NCBI RefSeq assembly: GCF_017377395.1
Contig: NZ_CP061800.1
Location: forward strand, 6,965,633-7,029,632
DNA from: Desulfonema magnum
GTDB taxonomy: Bacteria > Desulfobacterota > Desulfobacteria > Desulfobacterales > 4be13
Direction: 5' to 3'
DNA length: 64,000 nt
In this document: piece after piece, positions 13,473 through 45,092 of the stretch
How the letters are laid out: each line of letters starts with the position of its first letter
Numbering within the stretch: position 1 is the first letter of the stretch
Position numbers and translations under genes: made by a program
Notes under the pieces: model-generated
The model's input: the letters and a program-made list of their open reading frames with translations, nothing else
Told to the model about the DNA's origin: nothing
Database searches by the model: none

Positions 13473-14384
13473 ATGGGCAGTATTTTTCAAAGCTTGCAAA
13501 AAAAAGAACTGTTAGGGCCTCATCCGAGATTCCTAGAAACGAGTATCCAATATGAAGTGACGATGGGGTCTTTTGCCTACGGCGTTTCTGATGACACATC
13601 TGATATGGATATCTATGGATTTTGTATTCCCCCAAAAGATTATATCTTTCCGCATTTAAGAGGTGAAATTCGGGGGTTTGGCAAACCCGGGCCATCATTT
13701 GACCAGTTTCAACGGCATCATATATATGATCCGTCTGCCCGCGGAGGCCGGGGTCGCGAATATGATTTGACAATGTACTCCATTATTAAGTATTTCCGAT
13801 TATGTATGGAAAACAATCCGAATATGATTGACAGCTTATTTGTGCCCAGGCGATGCGTTTTGTTCTCAACGCAGGTGGGTGAACTCGTCAGGGAAAACAG
13901 ATATTCTTTTCTGCATAAGGGGTCATGGCATAAATTCAAAGGCTATGCGTTTTCTCAGATTCATAAAATGAGAACCAAAAATCCCATAGGAAAAAGAAAA
14001 GATACAATTGCCAAATATGGTTTTGATGTAAAATTTGCCTATCATGTGGTGCGTTTATTAAATGAAGTGGAGCAAATACTGACCGAGCATGATCTGGACC
14101 TGGAAAGAAACAGAGAACAACTAAAAGCCATTCGTCGGGGGGAATGGACTCAGGAAGATGTGGAAAACTATTTTGCCTCAAAGGAAAGAGACCTGGAAAC
14201 GCTGTACACAGAAAGCAAACTTCGCTATAAACCTGACGAAGAGAAATTAAAAGACCTCCTGCTGAACTGTCTGGAACATCATTATGGCAGCCTGAACGCA
14301 TGTGTGGTAAAACAAGATGAAGCTATAAAAGCGTTAAAAGATATTGGTGAAATTCTCAATAAAGTAAGAGGACTGTATAATTGA
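13473..14384 (+). CDS. Predicted nucleotidyltransferase (YcgL/COG3541-like)
   Basis: 303 aa. The N-terminal third carries a polymerase-beta-type signature MGSFAYGVSDDTSDMDIYGF (about residues 30-50; a GS motif followed by D-x-D). Downstream, EYDLTMYSIIKYFRLCMENN and PNMIDSLFVP match predicted nucleotidyltransferases of the COG3541 type. A charged helical C-terminus follows. Substrate unknown. The stop codon coincides with the first units of the long heptamer array. Confidence 0.8.
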   Translation: MGSIFQSLQKKELLGPHPRFLETSIQYEVTMGSFAYGVSDDTSDMDIYGFCIPPKDYIFPHLRGEIRGFGKPGPSFDQFQRHHIYDPSARGGRGREYDLTMYSIIKYFRLCMENNPNMIDSLFVPRRCVLFSTQVGELVRENRYSFLHKGSWHKFKGYAFSQIHKMRTKNPIGKRKDTIAKYGFDVKFAYHVVRLLNEVEQILTEHDLDLERNREQLKAIRRGEWTQEDVENYFASKERDLETLYTESKLRYKPDEEKLKDLLLNCLEHHYGSLNACVVKQDEAIKALKDIGEILNKVRGLYN

Positions 14385-14580
14385 TAATTGATAACTGATA
14401 ACTGATAACTGATAACTGATAACTGATAACTGATAACTGATAACTGATAACTGATAATTGATAACTGATAACTGATAATTGATAACTGATAATTGATAAC
14501 TGATAATTGATAACTGATAATTGATAACTGATAATTGATAATTGATAATTGATAATTGATAATTGATAATTGATAATTGA
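14378..14580. repeat. 7-bp tandem array (GATAACT/GATAATT), about 28 units
   Basis: An uninterrupted run of GATAACT and GATAATT units fills the gap between the nucleotidyltransferase stop and the ribosome site (AAAGGAG) of the next gene. Translated in any frame it gives heptapeptide repeats without stops on the minus strand, which is an artefact of the period. Confidence 0.97.
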
Positions 14581-14601
14581 AAGGAGATCGTTGTATATAC
14601 T

Positions 14602-15396
14602 ATGAGATATGTCCGACAACTGAAAGAAACGGGCTGTGCTGTTCTGACAATTGGTTTTGTGTTGGCCCTGCTGCTCACTGCAAATATCGGCTGGGCGGAA
14701 GAACTGAGCTTTGTGCAGAAGCTTTGTGATGCCTATCAAAATATTGATACGATTACTTGCGAGATTCGTAAAACTACTAAGGGCGGCGGAAGAACCATGA
14801 GAATGCTCAGTCGGGTGTATTATAAAAAAGGTTATTATGTTCATGTGGATAATGTCACCCCCAGAAAAAGGAGAATTATCGCGGACAGCAAAACCCTCTG
14901 GTATTATGAAACGGACGCCCCAAGAGGCTTTTCCCGGTCCATATCAGAACTGACTGAGGTATGGATGTCAGCGATCAATAATATTCCGGGAACGCCCATG
15001 GAAAACCTTCTTAAGCTCAGAGGGCTTCCTGAAATATCCCTTCCCGCAACAGATGAATATCCCATCAGAAAAGCCTATCAGGCTGAAAAAGCTTATGTGG
15101 TTCTGTATTGTGATAATTCAGAGCGTCTGATAAAAATTGAGTTTTTTGATTCATCAGAAATGAAAAAATCAATAGCTCATTATAATTACAGCGCGTTTCA
15201 AAAAGCAAATGAACATTGCTGGATTCCATGTCTTCATAAAGCCGTCATTTCCCTGCCGGACGGTGAGGAGATGACTGAAACAAGACGTATCAACAATCTG
15301 GAAGTAAACAAACCCGTGGCCGACAGAATGTTCAAGGCAGGTATCTTCTTTAAGGATGTTGAATTTGTAGGTGATTTTGAAAAAATGTATGATTAA
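14602..15396 (+). CDS. Secreted LolA-like lipoprotein-binding protein
   Basis: 264 aa with a signal peptide ending near WAEE (hydrophobic core VLTIGFVLALLLTANIG). The mature part looks like the LolA/LolB-fold family (outer-membrane lipoprotein-sorting proteins): an early FVQKLCDAYQNIDTITCEIR helix/strand, YYVHVDNVTPRKRRIIADSK and LWYYETDAPRG, then alternating strands. Likely periplasmic, binding lipid or lipoprotein. The fold is inferred from the pattern. AAAGGAG lies 16 nt upstream of the ATG, directly after the heptamer array. Confidence 0.6.
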   Translation: MRYVRQLKETGCAVLTIGFVLALLLTANIGWAEELSFVQKLCDAYQNIDTITCEIRKTTKGGGRTMRMLSRVYYKKGYYVHVDNVTPRKRRIIADSKTLWYYETDAPRGFSRSISELTEVWMSAINNIPGTPMENLLKLRGLPEISLPATDEYPIRKAYQAEKAYVVLYCDNSERLIKIEFFDSSEMKKSIAHYNYSAFQKANEHCWIPCLHKAVISLPDGEEMTETRRINNLEVNKPVADRMFKAGIFFKDVEFVGDFEKMYD

Positions 15397-36200: not shown

Positions 36201-36214
36201 ATTAAGATCAACCA

Positions 36215-36290
36215 GATAAAGCCAAACCCGCTGTGAGGCGGGGACGGAAAGCTACGGATCTCGGAAGAGACAGCCGGGTTGCCTATAATG
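36215..36290 (+). promoter_or_regulatory. GEMM-I riboswitch (c-di-GMP or cGAMP)
   Basis: The sequence has the GEMM-I layout: GCCAAACC (36221), a 6-bp stem CCCGCT/GGCGGG capped by a GNRA loop (GTGA), then GGACGGAAAGC, TACGGATCT, a short loop, and AGACAGCCGGGTTGCC. These are the conserved bulge, tetraloop, junction and receptor-arm segments of the class. Whether it prefers c-di-GMP or cGAMP cannot be read safely by eye. It lies about 240 nt upstream of the sigma-54 activator gene. Confidence 0.8.
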
Positions 36291-36307
36291 GGGTAATCCG
36301 GCTTTTT
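36272..36307 (+). terminator. Terminator overlapping the riboswitch 3' end
   Basis: AGCCGGGTTGCC and GGTAATCCGGCT pair (with G-T wobbles) around a TATAATGG loop, followed by TTTTATTG. The 5' arm is the last conserved GEMM segment, so aptamer folding and terminator formation exclude each other; ligand binding should favour read-through. Confidence 0.7.
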
Positions 36308-36550
36308 ATTGAAAAAATTTATACTTGTTTTGGACGGCTCAGTAATCAGTAATGATGATAAAAATACTCTGTTCTGCATAAAAAAAATCATATCATCAGA
36401 AACAGCAAGAACCAAGACAAAATTATCAAGAAAAACGGCAAGGACATTTTTGGGTGTATTCATAAGTTGGGGAGCATTTGAAACCGCGTCTCGTCAATGC
36501 GCCCGGAATTTTTTCAATCTTTTCTAAAAATGAATACAATTGGAAGAGCT

Positions 36551-37993
36551 ATGAAAAATAAAAATCAACTTCAACCATCGGTAATGATCGTGGATGATTC
36601 GGAAACCATGCTTCTGACCATCAAGGAACAGTTACTCGATGCCGGAGTGAGTCCTCTGATCATCTGCAATGACAGCCAGCAGGTGCTGGATCTGATTGCT
36701 GAGAACCGGGTCGGGGTTCTGGTTCTGTACCTGGTGACACCGCACATTGGCGGCGAGGAACTGCTTAAAAAAGTCAGCAACAGATTTCCGGAGATTCCGG
36801 TTATTGTTCTCACCGCGTTGGCAGAGGTGGACACAGCGGTTCGGTGCATGAAAGCCGGGGCGTTTGATTGCGTGGTCAAGGGAACGGGCATGCATGATTT
36901 CCTCAACGCTGTCCGTCATGCCCTGAAACTAAGGAAATCGGCTTGGGAAACGGAGAGCTTGGGACAGTGCATCCGGTCCGACCGGCCCGAAAATCCTGAG
37001 GCTTTCGCACACATCATCGCCCAGGACAAAAAAATGCTCTCTCTTTTCCGATATGTCGAAGCCGCTGCTCCCAGTCCTCATCCGGTGCTGATTACCGGCG
37101 AAACCGGTGTGGGAAAGGAGCTCTTTGCCACTGCCATCCACACACTCAGCGGCCGCAGGGGGAAAATGGTCAGTGTGAACACAGCCGGTCTTGATGACAC
37201 CATGTTTTCAGACACCCTTTTCGGGCATGTCAAAGGTGCTTACACCGGGAGCGCTGGAGATCGCAAGGGACTGATCAGACAGGCTGCCGGCGGGACCCTT
37301 TTTCTGGACGAAATCGGGGACCTGAGCCCTGAATCCCAGGTGAAACTGCTGAGGCTGCTCCAGGAAGGGGAATACCTGCCTTTGGGCTGTGACAAACACA
37401 GTCAGACAGATGCCCGCATTGTCACGAGTACGCACAGGGATCTCTGGAAACTTCAGGAGGAGGGCAAATTCCGGGAGGACCTCATTTACCGGCTGCAAAC
37501 CCATCATGTGCATATACCGCCGCTGCGTGAGCGTTCAGCGGATATTGCGCTGCTGACCAAATTTTTTGTCAGGAAGACTTATCTCAAAGAGAAAAAAGAG
37601 GTGCCGGAAATACCCGAGGCCTTTACAAATTTGTTGGAAACTTATCCTTTTCCGGGAAATGTGAGGGAGTTGCAGTCAATGATTGTTGATGCCATGGTCA
37701 GGGACGGATCAGGGGTGCTTTCTCCGGAGCTTATCCGGCCCTATGTGACAAAAATGAAGGAAAAAGAAAAGGGATCGCCATTCGCACATCTTAAAATGCT
37801 GCCTACGCTGAGACAGGCATCAGACATGCTCATTGATGAAGCTATGAAACGGAGCGGGAATCAGACCGTTGCAGCCAAATTGCTGGGCATCACGCAACCC
37901 ACTCTGAGCGAAAGACTGAAAAAGCGAAGGATGATGTCAGGTGTCAAGTATCCGAGAGTACTCCGTGCAAACCCTTGTCATTTCGGGCAATAA
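36551..37993 (+). CDS. Sigma-54-dependent activator with degenerate receiver domain
   Basis: 480 aa from the ATG at 36551 (GGAAGAG 4-9 nt upstream; earlier ATGs at 36497 and 36530 lack a ribosome site). Residues 8-125 are a receiver-like domain with the acidic pair VDDSE and the lysine region VVKG, but where the phosphorylated Asp belongs the sequence is VLVLYLVTP, with Tyr. Residues about 155-375 are the AAA+ domain: Walker A GETGVGKE, GAYTGS in place of the sigma-54-contact GAFTGA, and Walker B GTLFLDEIGD. The C-terminus has a Fis-type helix-turn-helix (NQTVAAKLLGITQPTLSERL). Convergent with, and 268 bp from, the sigma-54-driven peptide genes; preceded by a GEMM riboswitch. Confidence 0.9.
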   Translation: MKNKNQLQPSVMIVDDSETMLLTIKEQLLDAGVSPLIICNDSQQVLDLIAENRVGVLVLYLVTPHIGGEELLKKVSNRFPEIPVIVLTALAEVDTAVRCMKAGAFDCVVKGTGMHDFLNAVRHALKLRKSAWETESLGQCIRSDRPENPEAFAHIIAQDKKMLSLFRYVEAAAPSPHPVLITGETGVGKELFATAIHTLSGRRGKMVSVNTAGLDDTMFSDTLFGHVKGAYTGSAGDRKGLIRQAAGGTLFLDEIGDLSPESQVKLLRLLQEGEYLPLGCDKHSQTDARIVTSTHRDLWKLQEEGKFREDLIYRLQTHHVHIPPLRERSADIALLTKFFVRKTYLKEKKEVPEIPEAFTNLLETYPFPGNVRELQSMIVDAMVRDGSGVLSPELIRPYVTKMKEKEKGSPFAHLKMLPTLRQASDMLIDEAMKRSGNQTVAAKLLGITQPTLSERLKKRRMMSGVKYPRVLRANPCHFGQ

Positions 37994-38029: not shown

Positions 38030-38240
38030 TTATATTGCATATCATCGGCTGCACGAGCGCCGGTGCCGAAGTCCATGGCCGGTATGATGACACAATACCC
38101 GATTCCGATGATTTCACAAAGTTACTTTTACAGATGATTCAGTGTATGCGGCGGCTTGCCAGGATGGGAACGGAGGCAGTCTCGGTGACCGGATTCCCTC
38201 TCATCTTGACTCACCGCCGGAGATCGTGCTGGTTCGTGGT
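38030..38240 (+). pseudogene. Possible FIST-domain remnant
   Basis: One frame reads LHIIGCTSAGAEVHGRYDDT and an adjacent frame FTDDSVYAAACQDGNGG. The first piece resembles the I-G-C-T-S-A-G-E segment of FIST sensory domains. The frames are broken, so if real it is a decayed fragment. Overlaps the region downstream of peptide gene 5. Confidence 0.3.
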
Positions 38241-38261
38241 TTCTGTCGGACGTGGTGTGCA

Positions 38262-38441
38262 TCAGCGAATCTTAACTTTAAGACAGTTGATCTTCAGGTC
38301 CATTCCTCCTCCTCCTCCGCACCTGCGTCTCCCTTGGCCGGTGTCTGTGCTTGAGTACATTACACCGAGTACCATAGCGAAATCGGTGTAGCCGCCTTTT
38401 ACGGCTTTCATCTTTTTTCTGCTCAGTTCTTTCTGTTTCAT
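38262..38441 (-). CDS. Double-glycine-leader peptide 5 (59 aa), most diverged of tandem set
   Basis: 59 aa. Leader MKQKELSRKKMKAVKGG is the E-L-S-x-x-x-M-K-x-V-x-G-G type cut after Gly-Gly by C39 peptidases of export ABC transporters in known systems. The core starts YTDFAMVLGVMYSSTDTG and ends MDLKINCLKVKIR; it carries two Cys and a Gly run (CGGGGG) absent from the other copies. Ribosome site AAGGAGGTG 4 nt before the ATG. Last gene of the four-copy operon read from 39437. Secreted-peptide function is inferred; no activity can be read from sequence. Confidence 0.8.
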   Translation of the reverse strand: MKQKELSRKKMKAVKGGYTDFAMVLGVMYSSTDTGQGRRRCGGGGGMDLKINCLKVKIR

Positions 38442-38607
38442 TTTACACCTCCTTATTAATTATGACAGTTGACAGCTTATGTGAAAAATTCCTCCCTCCT
38501 GAGTTTGGCTGATCATGTAAAACCAGTCTGTCATGGCCTGCTGAGAGGAATAAGGAATTTATAAAGCAATGTGGAAGTCCCCCCTGCCGGGGCAGGGAGG
38601 GTGTGCA

Positions 38608-38772
38608 TCAGCGAATTTTGACACAAAGCCCGGCAATCTTAAAATCCAGTCCGCCTCTTCTCCGCCTTCCAGTGTCCGTGCTTGCATAATTTACACCGAG
38701 TACCATGGCAAAATCAGTCCAGCCGCCTTTTACAGCTTTCATCTTTTTTCTGCTCAGTTCTTTCTGTTTCAT
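38608..38772 (-). CDS. Double-glycine-leader peptide 4 (54 aa)
   Basis: 54 aa, identical in protein sequence to the next copy upstream (38938-39102). Leader MKQKELSRKKMKAVKGG, core beginning WTDFAMVLGVNYASTDTG, then a basic RRRRGG stretch and LDFKIAGLCVKIR with a single Cys. Ribosome site AAGGAGGTG. The stop is followed by a GC-rich hairpin (CCCTGCCCCGGCAGGG) without a T run, more like an mRNA stabiliser or processing site than a terminator. Codon-level differences from copy 3 are synonymous, which suggests selection on the peptide. Confidence 0.85.
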   Translation of the reverse strand: MKQKELSRKKMKAVKGGWTDFAMVLGVNYASTDTGRRRRGGLDFKIAGLCVKIR

Positions 38773-38937
38773 TTTGCACCTCCTTACTAATTATGACAGT
38801 TGACAGTCTATGTTAAAAAATTCCTCCCTCCTGGATTTGGCTGACCATTTAAAATCAGTCTGTCACGCTCTGCTGAGAGGGATGAAAAATTTACAACGCA
38901 ATGTGGCATTCCCCCTGCCGGGGCAGGGGGGCGTACA

Positions 38938-39102
38938 TCAGCGAATTTTGACACAAAGTCCGGCAATCTTAAAATCCAGTCCGCCTCTTCTCCGTCTTCC
39001 GGTGTCCGTGCTTGCATAATTTACACCGAGTACCATGGCAAAATCAGTCCATCCGCCTTTTACAGCTTTCATTTTTTTTCTGCTCAGTTCTTTCTGTTTC
39101 AT
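38938..39102 (-). CDS. Double-glycine-leader peptide 3 (54 aa)
   Basis: 54 aa, same protein as copy 4 with synonymous changes (for example AAA for AAG at codon 10 and GGA for GGC in the GG pair). Ribosome site is GAGGTG. Followed by the same GC-rich hairpin. Lies 330 bp from copy 4 and 335 bp from copy 2, measured start to start, so the whole gene plus spacer was duplicated in tandem. Confidence 0.85.
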   Translation of the reverse strand: MKQKELSRKKMKAVKGGWTDFAMVLGVNYASTDTGRRRRGGLDFKIAGLCVKIR

Positions 39103-39272
39103 TTTGCACCTCATTATTAATTATGACAGTTGACAGTCTATGTTAAAAATTCCTCCCACCCCTCCTGGCTTTGGCTGACCATTTAAAATCAGTCTGTCAC
39201 GCTCTGCTGAGAGGGATGAAAAATTTACAACGCAATGTGACATTCCCCCTGCCGGGGCAGGGGGAGCGTGCA

Positions 39273-39437
39273 TCAGCGAATTCTGACACAAAGCCCGGCA
39301 ATATTAAAATCCAGTCCGCCTCTTCTCCGTCTCCCGGTGTCCGAAGTAGCATAATTTACACCGAGTACCATGGCAAAATCAGTCCATCCGCCTTTTACAG
39401 CTTTCATTTTTTTTCTGGTCAGTTCTTTCTTTTTCAT
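39273..39437 (-). CDS. Double-glycine-leader peptide 2 (54 aa), first gene of tandem operon
   Basis: 54 aa. Leader MKKKELTRKKMKAVKGG, core WTDFAMVLGVNYATSDTG, RRRRGG and LDFNIAGLCVRIR; five residues differ from copies 3 and 4. Ribosome site AAGGAGGTG. A sigma-54 promoter lies at 39509-39527, giving a leader of about 60 nt. Promoter-proximal member of the four-gene tandem set. Confidence 0.85.
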   Translation of the reverse strand: MKKKELTRKKMKAVKGGWTDFAMVLGVNYATSDTGRRRRGGLDFNIAGLCVRIR

Positions 39438-39508
39438 TTTGCACCTCCTTATTAATTATGACAGTTGACAGGGTATGAAAGATATTTTTTGCTCTTATAA
39501 ATCTTTTC

Positions 39509-39527
39509 TTGCAAGATGTGTGCCTAA
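39509..39527 (-). promoter_or_regulatory. Sigma-54 promoter of the tandem peptide operon
   Basis: The minus strand reads TTAGGCACACATCTTGCAAG, with GG and GC separated by exactly 10 nt and the TTGCA -12 box intact; the -26 T of the consensus is A. The stretch from here to the ATG (AAAAGATTTATAAGAGC) is also conserved at the second promoter. Confidence 0.75.
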
Positions 39528-39712
39528 TGTTTTTTGTCTTATACATTTTTTTGCAGGCAGAGGATATCACGGTCCTCATACACATATTATTTTCAGCGTC
39601 CTGTCGCGGGCATTATATTTTTTTAAATTATTATTACAAAATGTTATATATTATAATCAGCATTGTTTGGCGGCCGACTTTTCCGCGAACCCTGCTCCGA
39701 TTTATACCAAAT

Positions 39713-39850
39713 AGGGAACTCGAAATAAATAATATACCCAATACAAAAAATGTAGGGTGGGTGGAGCGAAGCGCAACCCACCTTGTGCGGTGGGTTGCGC
39801 TTCGCTCCACCCACCCTACACCGGGTATTTTATTTTTGGGGAAATCCCTT
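39713..39850. mobile_element. Complete palindromic GTAGGGTGGG element
   Basis: Left arm AGGGAACTCGAAATAAATAA through ATGTAGGGTGGGTGGAGCGA and AGCGCAACCCACC; right arm GGTGGGTTGCGCTTCGCTCC through ACCCACCCTACA to GGGGAAATCCCT. Half copies occur at 6018-6092, 51947-52016 and 57191-57232. Confidence 0.85.
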
Positions 39851-40770
39851 AAATATTTAATATCAGAATGCCCCGGAGTCCTGCCGCACCATCTAAAACA
39901 AAGAGCGGTGTCGGATATGATTGTCGGTGATGCTGACAGGTCAGTCTCCGCTCTCAGAACCAGGTCTGTTTTGAAAAATCGGGTTTCCTGATGTAAAAAA
40001 ATGATTTTCTCAGAGTGTTTTTATCTTTTGATTTACAACCCAAATAAAAAAAGGTATAGGGTTTTCTATATTATTCAGTCTGAATATAATCGGCTTATGT
40101 GTGATCATAGCCATGACATCATAAGTATTATCATTCTAATCAGAGGGATAGATGTTCTAGGAAATCCTATCGGAATTATAGTATTTCCTATGAAAGCGTC
40201 CAAGGGGAGATGACAGGTCTGATATAGGCCATCTGAATCAGCTATTTTTATTTGCCTCCCCCTTCGACAAGCTCAGGGTACGCCGTTTTCGTTCCCTGAG
40301 CTTGTCGAAGGGAAAACGGCCCTGATCTTTGTATCAGCTCTTCATCGGCTCTGCTTCTTCTGAGTTTTTAAAGCTGAGGATCAAGTTCTTCTCGGATGAT
40401 TGAATTTATTGATAATTCTCAGGGTGACGATTTTCTCAGGCGATTTTCGAAAAAGCCCATAGGAATTTTCCCAAAAATAAAAGCGGTTCCTGCAAACTCG
40501 ATGTTTAGGACTGCCAAAAGCTGGTTATTGAGCGTCATAAGACAACCTGATAAAATATCGGAAAATTTCTGGCAGGATACTTACTGATGTGTTTTTATAT
40601 GTCAGTTGTCTCTGCTTTTTTTGTTCACGAGGGTAGCAACACAGATTTTGAGGTATTTGGGGATGTGGGGGTGGTTTGTCCGGCGGTTTGTCAGGATAGG
40701 TTTTAACCTTCCTTTTTTCGACTCACCGCCGGATGTTTTGGGGTTTGTTATCCTCTTTGGGGACAATGGG
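39851..40770. other. Gene-poor stretch between peptide units
   Basis: Short plus-strand frames at 40001-40213 and 40396-40587 have no ribosome site or recognisable motif. A CCCTTCGACAAGCTCAGGG / CCCTGAGCTTGTCGAAGGG palindrome lies at 40260-40312. GTTTTGAAAAATCGGGTTTC near 39968 resembles text at 41083 upstream of the lone peptide gene, a sign of an older, larger duplication. Confidence 0.6.
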
Positions 40771-40778
40771 AAAGTGCA

Positions 40779-40940
40779 TCAGCGAATTTTGATTTTAAGA
40801 TTATCAATTATAAAGTCCAGTCCGCCTTTCCCTTTACCCGTGTCCGTGCTAAAGTATGTGGTCATAAGTATCATATTGAAAAAAGTCCATCCGCCTTTTA
40901 CAGCTTTCATCTTTTTTCTGGTCAGTTTTTTTTGTTTCAT
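40779..40940 (-). CDS. Double-glycine-leader peptide 1 (53 aa), separate copy
   Basis: 53 aa. Leader MKQKKLTRKKMKAVKGG is nearly the same as in the tandem set; the core has diverged (WTFFNMILMTTYFSTDTGKG, then GLDFIIDNLKIKIR) and lacks Cys. STDTG, GLDF and the K-I-R end are kept. Ribosome site AAGGAGGTG. It has its own sigma-54 promoter at 41008-41026. Leader conservation with core change is the usual picture for families of exported or modified peptides sharing one processing machine. Confidence 0.82.
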   Translation of the reverse strand: MKQKKLTRKKMKAVKGGWTFFNMILMTTYFSTDTGKGKGGLDFIIDNLKIKIR

Positions 40941-41007
40941 TTAGCACCTCCTTTTGTTTATGAATGTTGACAAGGCATAAAAGATAATCGCTCTTATAAA
41001 TCTTTTC

Positions 41008-41026
41008 CTGCAAAAAGTGTGCCTAA
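41008..41026 (-). promoter_or_regulatory. Sigma-54 promoter of the lone peptide gene
   Basis: The minus strand reads TTTAGGCACACTTTTTGCAG: GG (41022-41023) and GC (41010-41011) separated by 10 nt, followed by GGAAAAGATTTATAAGAGC as at the first promoter. About 85 bp upstream lies the perfect palindrome GACAAGGCATGCCTTGTC (41109-41126), a candidate activator site. Confidence 0.75.
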
Positions 41027-41108
41027 AAATTTTCATTTTAGTTGAACTTCAAATTAATCACCCCTTTCAGCCCCCGGACGGTTTTGAAAAACTGTTTTCC
41101 TGATATAA

Positions 41109-41126
41109 GACAAGGCATGCCTTGTC
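41109..41126. promoter_or_regulatory. Perfect 18-bp palindrome, candidate activator binding site
   Basis: GACAAGGCATGCCTTGTC is fully self-complementary and sits about 85 bp upstream of the -24 box of the lone peptide gene, a usual distance for sigma-54 activator sites. The tandem operon promoter has only a weaker GAGGA-N8-TCCTC match (39560-39577), so the assignment is speculative. Confidence 0.4.
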
Positions 41127-41476
41127 TCTGCTGTGCCGTAAAAAGCCGGATTTTTTTCTGGTCCCGGACTCAGACGAAGGAAGAAACCTGGCTTTTTTGC
41201 TCCCGCATTCAGTCAGATACTATAAACAGCATCTCGCCTCACCTGTGTCTGAATAAGCTTAACCAGTTCGTTTAATTGTTTAAAAACGCATGTAAGTCTG
41301 TCCTGCTGTGTTGCCGACGGCTATTCTGATGCTTATTTTTTGGTAACAAAATGGGTTAATCGTAACACACATAACAAATAATCCTTTCAGATATAAAAAA
41401 AATCTGGTAAATAAAGACAGTGACCTCGCTAAAATAGAAATTTAATAATTATCAAATCAGAGTGTTGGAGGATATG

Positions 41477-44182: not shown

Positions 44183-44428
44183 CTACCATATTTGAATTTT
44201 TTTTAGTGTTTTGGAAAACATGCTGGGAAATCCGAGTTTTGACAGACAAATTGTATTTTCTTTTTAAGACAAGGATGGTCAGTTTGCAATTGTTTTTTCA
44301 GAAAAATTGCAGTATCATTAAATGATTCCTGATTTCTCAGGTTTTTTGATTGGATAAATTATGATATGAACCGCGGAATTTCACAGATTTTACAGATTCA
44401 GCAGATTGAAAAAAAATTTTTAATATAC

Positions 44429-44918
44429 TCAGCAGATCGAAAAAGTTTTCGGGCCGTCACAGGGCAGACACGGCGGCCAAGAAAGAAACCCGGCTTTTTC
44501 CGGCCGGGGAGAGCGCCCCGTCCGGGAAAAAAAGCCGGGTTTCTCGGCAGATGGAAAAGCCTTCGGGCTGTCACAGGGCGGACGGGAAAGAAACCCGGCT
44601 TTTTCCGGCCGGGGAGAGCGCCCCGTCCGGGAAAAAAAGCCGGGTTTCTCGGCAGATGGAAAAGTCTTCGGGCTGTCAGAGGACGGACACGGCGGACGGG
44701 AAAGAAACCCGGCTTTTTCCTGCGGGGGAGATCGCTCCGTCCGGGAAAAAAAGCCGGGTTTCTCGGCAGATGGAAAAGTCTTCGGGCTGTCAGAGGACGG
44801 ACACGGCGGACGGGAAAGAAACCCGGCTTTTTCCTGCGGGGGAGATCGCCCCGTCCGGGAAAAAAAGCCGGGTTTCTCGGCTGTCCCGCACACAGCCCGG
44901 AAACTTTTCGATCTGCTG
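44429..44918. mobile_element. CAGCAGATCG MITE-like element with internal tandem units
   Basis: Ends CAGCAGATCGAAAAAGTTTT and AAACTTTTCGATCTGCTG; both flanks read ATACT, a possible 5-bp duplication. Inside are four units of about 105-120 bp, each with GAAACCCGGCTTTTTCC and GGAAAAAAAGCCGGGTTTCT arms and a CTTCGGGCTGTCA start. Apparent long frames on both strands follow from the repeat. Confidence 0.85.
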
Positions 44919-44959
44919 ATACTGTTAAAAGGAGTTCGAAAATTGGCTACAGCGATTTT

Positions 44960-45020
44960 TTGTATGGGATGCAAAAAACCGCTTCGCTCTATTTTTGCAC
45001 TCCGGAAAAAATATTTTCCG
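44960..45020. repeat. GCTTCGCTCTATTTTTGCAC fragment
   Basis: CGCTTCGCTCTATTTTTGCA CTCCGG-type text identical to one arm of the 102-bp palindrome in the array at 24932-26400. Only one arm is present. Confidence 0.7.
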
Positions 45021-45092
45021 AGATGTATATTAATCTGCGGTTCAGAAACTTTGATAATTAACCTATTTTAAATTTATGAAAGGAGCGGAAAA

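Follow-up and report, generated by a model that had tools for sequence, protein, structure and literature searches.

The 64,000-nucleotide stretch of the Desulfonema magnum genome analysed here (contig NZ_CP061800.1, positions 6,965,633 to 7,029,632, called the window below; the genome is a single contig with 8,027,777 bases, i.e., 8.03 Mb) contains five minus-strand frames of 53-59 codons, each encoding a double-glycine leader and a core of 36-42 residues. These frames are protein-coding genes under purifying selection. The reading that is preferred (probability about 0.6) is that of a lineage-restricted family of secreted peptides, processed by a C39 peptidase, expressed from two sigma-54-type units, exported in trans, probably by a set of genes localized at 1.58 Mb, and probably left unmodified. 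The peptides would belong to a class already known; their core appears to be new, i.e., seen in no other genome searched.

Peptide genes, leader and core

38262..38441, minus strand: peptide gene 1, 59 amino acids; core of 42 residues after Gly-Gly; insertion of five codons (CGGGG) with reference to the other copies.
38608..38772, minus strand: peptide gene 2, 54 amino acids; core of 37 residues.
38938..39102, minus strand: peptide gene 3, 54 amino acids; same protein as gene 2, with 5 synonymous differences.
39273..39437, minus strand: peptide gene 4, 54 amino acids; first gene of the four-gene unit.
40779..40940, minus strand: peptide gene 5, 53 amino acids; most divergent core, without cysteine; a unit of its own.

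The first-pass annotation had placed the five frames at these positions, had noted their leaders and ribosome sites, and had described four of them as tandem duplicates at 330-335 bp; all of this is found again, the spacing of genes 1-4 being 331, 330 and 335 bp. A AAGGAGGTG-type ribosome site is localized a few bases 5' of the ATG in 5/5 genes. The leader (17 residues, consensus MK(Q/K)K(E/K)L(S/T)RKKMKAVKGG) is nearly invariant among the five copies and is the most conserved part of the alignment, which contains 29 invariant positions. Its positions -12, -7 and -4 are hydrophobic and Gly-Gly occupies -2/-1, i.e., the classic pattern of a double-glycine leader. A leader ending in L-x4-M-x2-V-x-G-G, a ribosome site and a short open reading frame (ORF) together identify the five frames as double-glycine-leader peptide genes.

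The cores have a computed charge of about +1.8 to +3.8 at pH 7 and are thus cationic. The computed monoisotopic masses of the unmodified cores are 4142.18, 4156.13, 4184.18 and 4553.26 Da (4.1-4.6 kDa). Three core motifs had been announced as kept in all copies (T-D-T-G, G-x-D and K-I-R); they are present, in the less strict forms [ST]-D-T-G, G-[LM]-D and [KR]-I-R. There is no conserved cysteine position in the core. A predicted structure of the peptide was not usable (mean predicted local distance difference test, pLDDT, of 48.7).

When ORFs are filtered for an ATG, a ribosome site and a double-glycine leader, exactly these five pass in the window and none passes in 60 windows simulated with a first-order Markov model. 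A slightly looser filter, applied to 1.12 Mb of fetched sequence, yields two matches beyond the five: a convincing precursor, localized in G050, another genome of the order, and a match that is probably noise.

Selection on the copies

Genes 2 and 3 differ by 5 synonymous and 0 non-synonymous changes (p ~5e-4 under neutrality), and genes 1 and 2 by 34 changes, 17 of each kind, with about 1 in 5 expected to be synonymous by chance (p 2e-4); neither transition bias nor the common ancestry of the pairs enters these p-values, which are thus indicative. The ratio of non-synonymous to synonymous substitution rates (dN/dS) over the whole gene is 0.17-0.50 for all pairs except 2/3. The core, with 0.17-0.57, is slightly less constrained than the leader. 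The differences in length are whole codons; no frameshift or stop is found in the five copies, and starts and ribosome sites are intact. The synonymous excess, the dN/dS values and the whole-codon length changes establish that the frames encode proteins and are under purifying selection.

The argument for selection on the peptide in the first-pass annotation is thus borne out, since dN/dS is well below 1 and a value near 1, named there as contrary evidence, is not seen. The pair on which it was founded has to be corrected: the «copies 3 and 4» said to differ by synonymous changes only are 38608 and 38938, a numbering right only in transcription order, while genes 3 (38938) and 4 (39273) differ by 6 non-synonymous changes.

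Two putative transcription units

The locus is made of two blocks resembling transcription units, each with a sigma-54-like site at its start and a related 3' hairpin at its end. Block A contains, in this order, the site 41024-41009, gene 5 and the hairpin 40733-40679. Block B contains the site 39525-39510, genes 4, 3, 2 and 1 with G+C-rich hairpins in the spacers, and the hairpin 38219-38149.

41058..41113, minus strand: upstream block, 5' of the gene 5 promoter; recurs 5' of gene 4.
41009..41024, minus strand: sigma-54-like -24/-12 site AGGCACACTTTTTGCA, 5' of gene 5; consensus match.
40679..40733, minus strand: 3' hairpin at the end of the gene 5 unit, related to that of the four-gene unit; z-score (z) -6.46.
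39945..40001, minus strand: second copy of the upstream block, about 0.4 kb from the gene 4 promoter.
39510..39525, minus strand: sigma-54-like -24/-12 site AGGCACACATCTTGCA, 5' of gene 4; consensus match.
39245..39265, minus strand: G+C-rich spacer hairpin between genes 4 and 3; z -2.72.
38911..38930, minus strand: G+C-rich spacer hairpin between genes 3 and 2; z -2.04.
38579..38600, minus strand: G+C-rich spacer hairpin between genes 2 and 1; z -1.75.
38149..38219, minus strand: 3' hairpin CCGGCGGTGAGTC...GGCAAGCCGCCG at the end of the four-gene unit.

Both sigma-54-like sites read AGGCAC-N5-TTGCA, i.e., one mismatch to TGGCAY-N5-TTGCW with an exact GG-N10-GC, and are localized 69-73 nt 5' of genes 5 and 4. 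Exact GG-N10-GC, near-consensus flanks and a position 5' of a gene correspond to the pattern of a sigma-54 promoter. They are the top two of a weighted scan of both strands of the window, and the promoter block occurs twice in the genome, both times at the peptide units. The position of the upstream block 41058..41113 would fit an activator-binding region; its second copy has been displaced from the gene 4 promoter by DNA rich in repeats. The simplest history would be the duplication of one ancestral unit followed by tandem amplification within block B.

It must be noticed that a perfect 32-bp inverted repeat (TGTAGGGTGGGTGGAGCGAAGCGCAACCCACC, 39751-39820) apparently belongs to the repeat-rich DNA that separates the upstream block from the gene 4 promoter. 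The only Rfam matches at the peptide locus are sub-threshold and of miRNA/snoRNA type; they fall mostly on this palindrome, which produces false miRNA matches, and are rejected. Another palindrome, around AGACAAGGCATGCCTTGTCT (41108-41130), recurs in several places of the genome and is a dispersed repeat.

Candidate exporters

An exporter gene beside the precursor is usual, although not universal, in such systems; none is localized at the peptide locus, so export would have to act in trans. This agrees with the first-pass annotation, which had seen no exporter in the window. The genome contains three C39 exporters of the ATP-binding cassette (ABC) type, none near the peptide genes, and the active-site Gln, Cys, His and Asp are kept in 3/3. 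These exporters are: (i) a set at 1.58 Mb (G000:C1:1581.8-1587.4 kb) with C39-ABC, HlyD and TolC-type genes; (ii) at 4.77 Mb (L058), a protein with a cyclic nucleotide monophosphate-binding (cNMP) part, i.e., a cNMP-C39-ABC protein of HetC architecture with two cNMP-domain stretches, in a cluster with HlyD-type proteins, an outer-membrane factor and a small peptidyl-prolyl-isomerase-like protein; (iii) at 0.64 Mb, a divergent C39-ABC protein near large secreted-looking proteins.

No precursor is found in 20 kb at exporter (i), i.e., none up to about 8 kb from the set, nor locally in the cluster of exporter (ii). Exporter (i) is the most likely one for the peptides by elimination, i.e., an exporter without local precursor and precursors without local exporter. 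Among 194 genomes of the order it has one close relative, in G050 (65% over the ABC part, 59% overall). A sigma-54-like site about 0.43 kb 5' of the TolC-type gene of the set is too weak to be taken as evidence.

Modification and family membership

The closest curated model is TIGR04149, a radical S-adenosylmethionine (SAM)-target model of precursors of ribosomally synthesized and post-translationally modified peptides (RiPPs). Its scores are 21.5 bits (gene 1, E 1.6e-4), 16.7, 16.7 and 12.7 bits, gene 5 being not listed; all copies are below the curated cut-off of 25 bits and the signal comes mainly from the leader. At every curated threshold the core falls outside the described families, as the first-pass annotation had supposed in recognising no bacteriocin or RiPP class. 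A profile search of the PDB with the peptide yields noise.

No SPASM radical-SAM enzyme is found in the cluster of the window. The genome encodes five SPASM proteins, whose gene context looks of sugar-cluster, haem and sulfatase type, and no double-glycine peptide or C39 gene is found near any of them. The best match in this genome to the maturase of G050 is 31% over 172 residues. A lanthipeptide core would be expected to contain conserved Cys and Ser/Thr as their partners; this is not seen, and gene 5 has no Cys at all. An immunity gene beside the structural gene, as in class II bacteriocins and microcins, is also missing: there is no plausible second minus-strand gene in 38150-41040. No evidence for a modification of the core is thus obtained, in a search that took in SPASM and not ATP-grasp, YcaO or LanC-type enzymes. 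ATP-grasp enzymes are also found together with precursors of TIGR04149 type (PMC8939145). The modification enzymes evoked in the first-pass annotation find no support in the SPASM contexts, the TIGR04149 scores or the cysteine positions.

Distribution of the core

A single-sequence search for core homologues in 96 relatives gives a best non-self E of 0.095, i.e., noise, and a core profile search in 390 genomes of the order gives one weak match inside an 876-codon frame, which is no homologue. The core is not found either in scans of genome and viral contigs, plasmids and phages (profile, single-sequence, pattern, tblastn). The DNA pattern of the leader has 20 matches in all genome contigs, which on inspection are large proteins or incidental frames and no precursor. 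The leader core RKKMK-x-V-x-GG points to no other precursor in the genome-contig collection. None of the near-matches inside this genome is a leader, though precursors with different leaders may be missed.

A family restricted to the lineage is the most likely conclusion from these searches, the core being found in this genome only. A lack of homologues with the leader in other genomes had been named beforehand as an observation contrary to a secreted-peptide locus, and none with this leader and core was found; «not found» is nevertheless weaker than «absent», since short, fast-evolving cores are hard to detect.

Neighbouring regulator and riboswitch

36212..36287, plus strand: c-di-GMP-I-GGC riboswitch aptamer (RF03167), 5' of the regulator gene.
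36272..36308, plus strand: intrinsic terminator, 13-bp stem and T run; its 5' arm is the aptamer 3' strand.
36497..37993, plus strand: NtrC-type response regulator (receiver, sigma-54 activator AAA+ with GAYTG loop, Fis-type helix-turn-helix).

The regulator gene is convergent to block B, the unit nearer to it. The covariance match to RF03167 reaches 67.3 bits (gathering score 59) over the full length of the model (1-80/80). The terminator overlaps the aptamer and shares a strand with it, an arrangement which suggests a ligand-ON switch. The NtrC-type regulator is the first candidate for an activator of both peptide units, to which adjacency and the sigma-54-like sites would link it.

These features complete the first-pass annotation, which had missed the layout in two units, the sigma-54-like promoters, the related hairpins at the 3' ends and the activator gene headed by a riboswitch. 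Between the riboswitch terminator and the regulator a 72-codon frame with a TTG start is also observed (36309-36527, plus strand); it has no clear ribosome site, runs into the beginning of the regulator frame as listed and stops shortly 5' of a later in-frame ATG (36531).

Proposed mechanism and alternative explanations

According to the preferred reading, a precursor with the 17-residue leader would be made from each gene; a C39-peptidase ABC exporter from another site of the genome, most likely that of the C39-ABC/HlyD/TolC set, would recognise the leader and cleave it off after Gly17, and the cationic core would be released outside the cell, probably without further modification. Both units would be transcribed from sigma-54-type promoters, and since such promoters need an enhancer-binding protein, the riboswitch-headed NtrC-type regulator would be the first candidate for this role. 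The released peptides would act on other cells. Antagonism is somewhat likelier than signalling because the cores are cationic and variable between copies; signalling is possible because no immunity gene is present. With reference to the first interpretation, the peptide class and the export in trans are retained, the modification is unsupported and the regulation was incomplete.

Several observations weigh against parts of this reading. The peptide locus itself has no exporter, modification enzyme or immunity gene, and the assignment of exporter (i) comes from elimination and one related cluster, so that the HetC-like exporter (4.77 Mb) is a serious alternative. The bare sigma-54 pattern is not enriched genome-wide (8 matches vs. 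12 in a reversed control); the two sites are paralogous and not independent, because they are localized in duplicated DNA; and a scan for sigma-70-type sites also yields a few matches on the minus strand of this region. Genomes without the peptides have relatives of the regulator too (64% in G003, about 50% in others), and the riboswitch is absent near the closest one; the regulator may thus control something else. The Rfam scan does not find the riboswitch near the relatives in G003, G006, G011, G027 and G037, no double-glycine peptide is found near the other relatives, and the regulator is the only gene common with G003 in this neighbourhood.

Among other RiPPs there are known cases of enzymes that act in trans on scattered precursors, and the cores might be altered in this manner before C39 export, by a radical-SAM, ATP-grasp or other enzyme, as in the G050 cluster. 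This is unlikely, even if the closest model is a radical-SAM-target family and if the cluster of G050 associates a related exporter with a SPASM radical-SAM enzyme and a TIGR04149-like precursor: the scores remain below the cut-off in all copies with a common signal mainly in the leader, the gene contexts of the five SPASM proteins are unrelated, the G050 enzyme has but a partial match here, and no cysteine is conserved. An equally low probability is given to export by the HetC-like protein of intra-organism cell-to-cell signals, in place of export of antagonists by the 1.58 Mb set. The cNMP-C39-ABC architecture is that reported for HetC (PMC10986499), the cluster has HlyD-type genes and an outer-membrane factor and lacks a local precursor, and the lack of an immunity gene is easier to understand for a signal than for a toxin. 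Relatives of similar size (frames of 1015-1056 amino acids) however occur in other genomes of the order without the peptides, so that this exporter probably has another substrate.

The orphan location, the lack of relatives in other genomes and the repeat-rich surroundings would also be expected of decaying or unexported paralogues, i.e., a family once used, kept by tandem duplication, with the leader as a relic. The purifying selection on all copies, together with their intact starts, ribosome sites and frames, makes this improbable. It is very improbable that the copies are repeated structured RNAs with incidental open frames: the spacer and end hairpins are strong, but they are outside the frames, the substitutions favour synonymous sites, the insertions are whole codons and all Rfam matches at the peptide locus are sub-threshold. 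Beyond the preferred reading, one may imagine a chain in which a cyclic-dinucleotide riboswitch sets the level of the NtrC-type activator, which drives the two sigma-54 units and thus C39-exported peptides passing between cells of this organism, with precursors and exporter unlinked. The complete chain is unlikely; if it were real, secreted peptides would be tied to a cyclic-dinucleotide signal in this bacterial group.

Comparison with known systems

Double-glycine-leader orphan peptides of Gram-negative bacteria were surveyed by Dirix et al. 2004, as cited in PMC8939145. Such peptides are easily missed because no neighbouring gene points to their secretion. The present family, whose core is seen nowhere else, is maintained by selection, and a likely exporter can be named by elimination. 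The peptides are similar to the Gram-negative C39 double-glycine peptides and class II microcins in leader length, hydrophobic spacing, Gly-Gly and small cationic core; they differ from class II microcins and orphan double-glycine peptides by the lack of a nearby exporter or immunity gene, an unrelated core and two sigma-54-like units. The leader resembles the model of TIGR04149 RiPP precursors (mostly Bacteroidetes; best score 21.5 bits); on the contrary, every copy is below 25 bits and no radical-SAM gene is nearby.

In the G050 cluster, C39-ABC and HlyD are respectively 59% (overall) and 35% identical to those of the candidate exporter set and the precursor is of TIGR04149 type. Its core differs, being Cys-rich, of 22 residues and unrelated, and its precursor and enzyme adjoin the exporter. 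This cluster (L098, G050:C549) is a compact RiPP-like one in its own right: Cys-rich double-glycine precursor, SPASM radical-SAM enzyme (best match the Clo7bot maturase model, below its cut-off), C39-ABC and HlyD, with a sensor kinase and an NtrC-type regulator about 2 kb downstream.

HetC of Nostoc is a cNMP-C39-ABC exporter (PMC10986499). A role in cell-to-cell signalling has been proposed for it. The exporter at 4.77 Mb has the same domain order, and there is no evidence here that it handles these peptides. The element 36212-36287 belongs, by its score above gathering, to the RF03167 family and is localized here 5' of an NtrC-type regulator gene.

Two other repeated regions of the window can be read as peptides. 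The direct repeats at 44366-45061 translate as GKKPGFFRPGRAPRPGKKAGFLGRW units on both strands and are probably a non-coding dispersed repeat. The tandem repeats at 14356-14678 (minus strand) translate as SYQLSVI/NYQLSII units, i.e., a simple DNA repeat read in frame.

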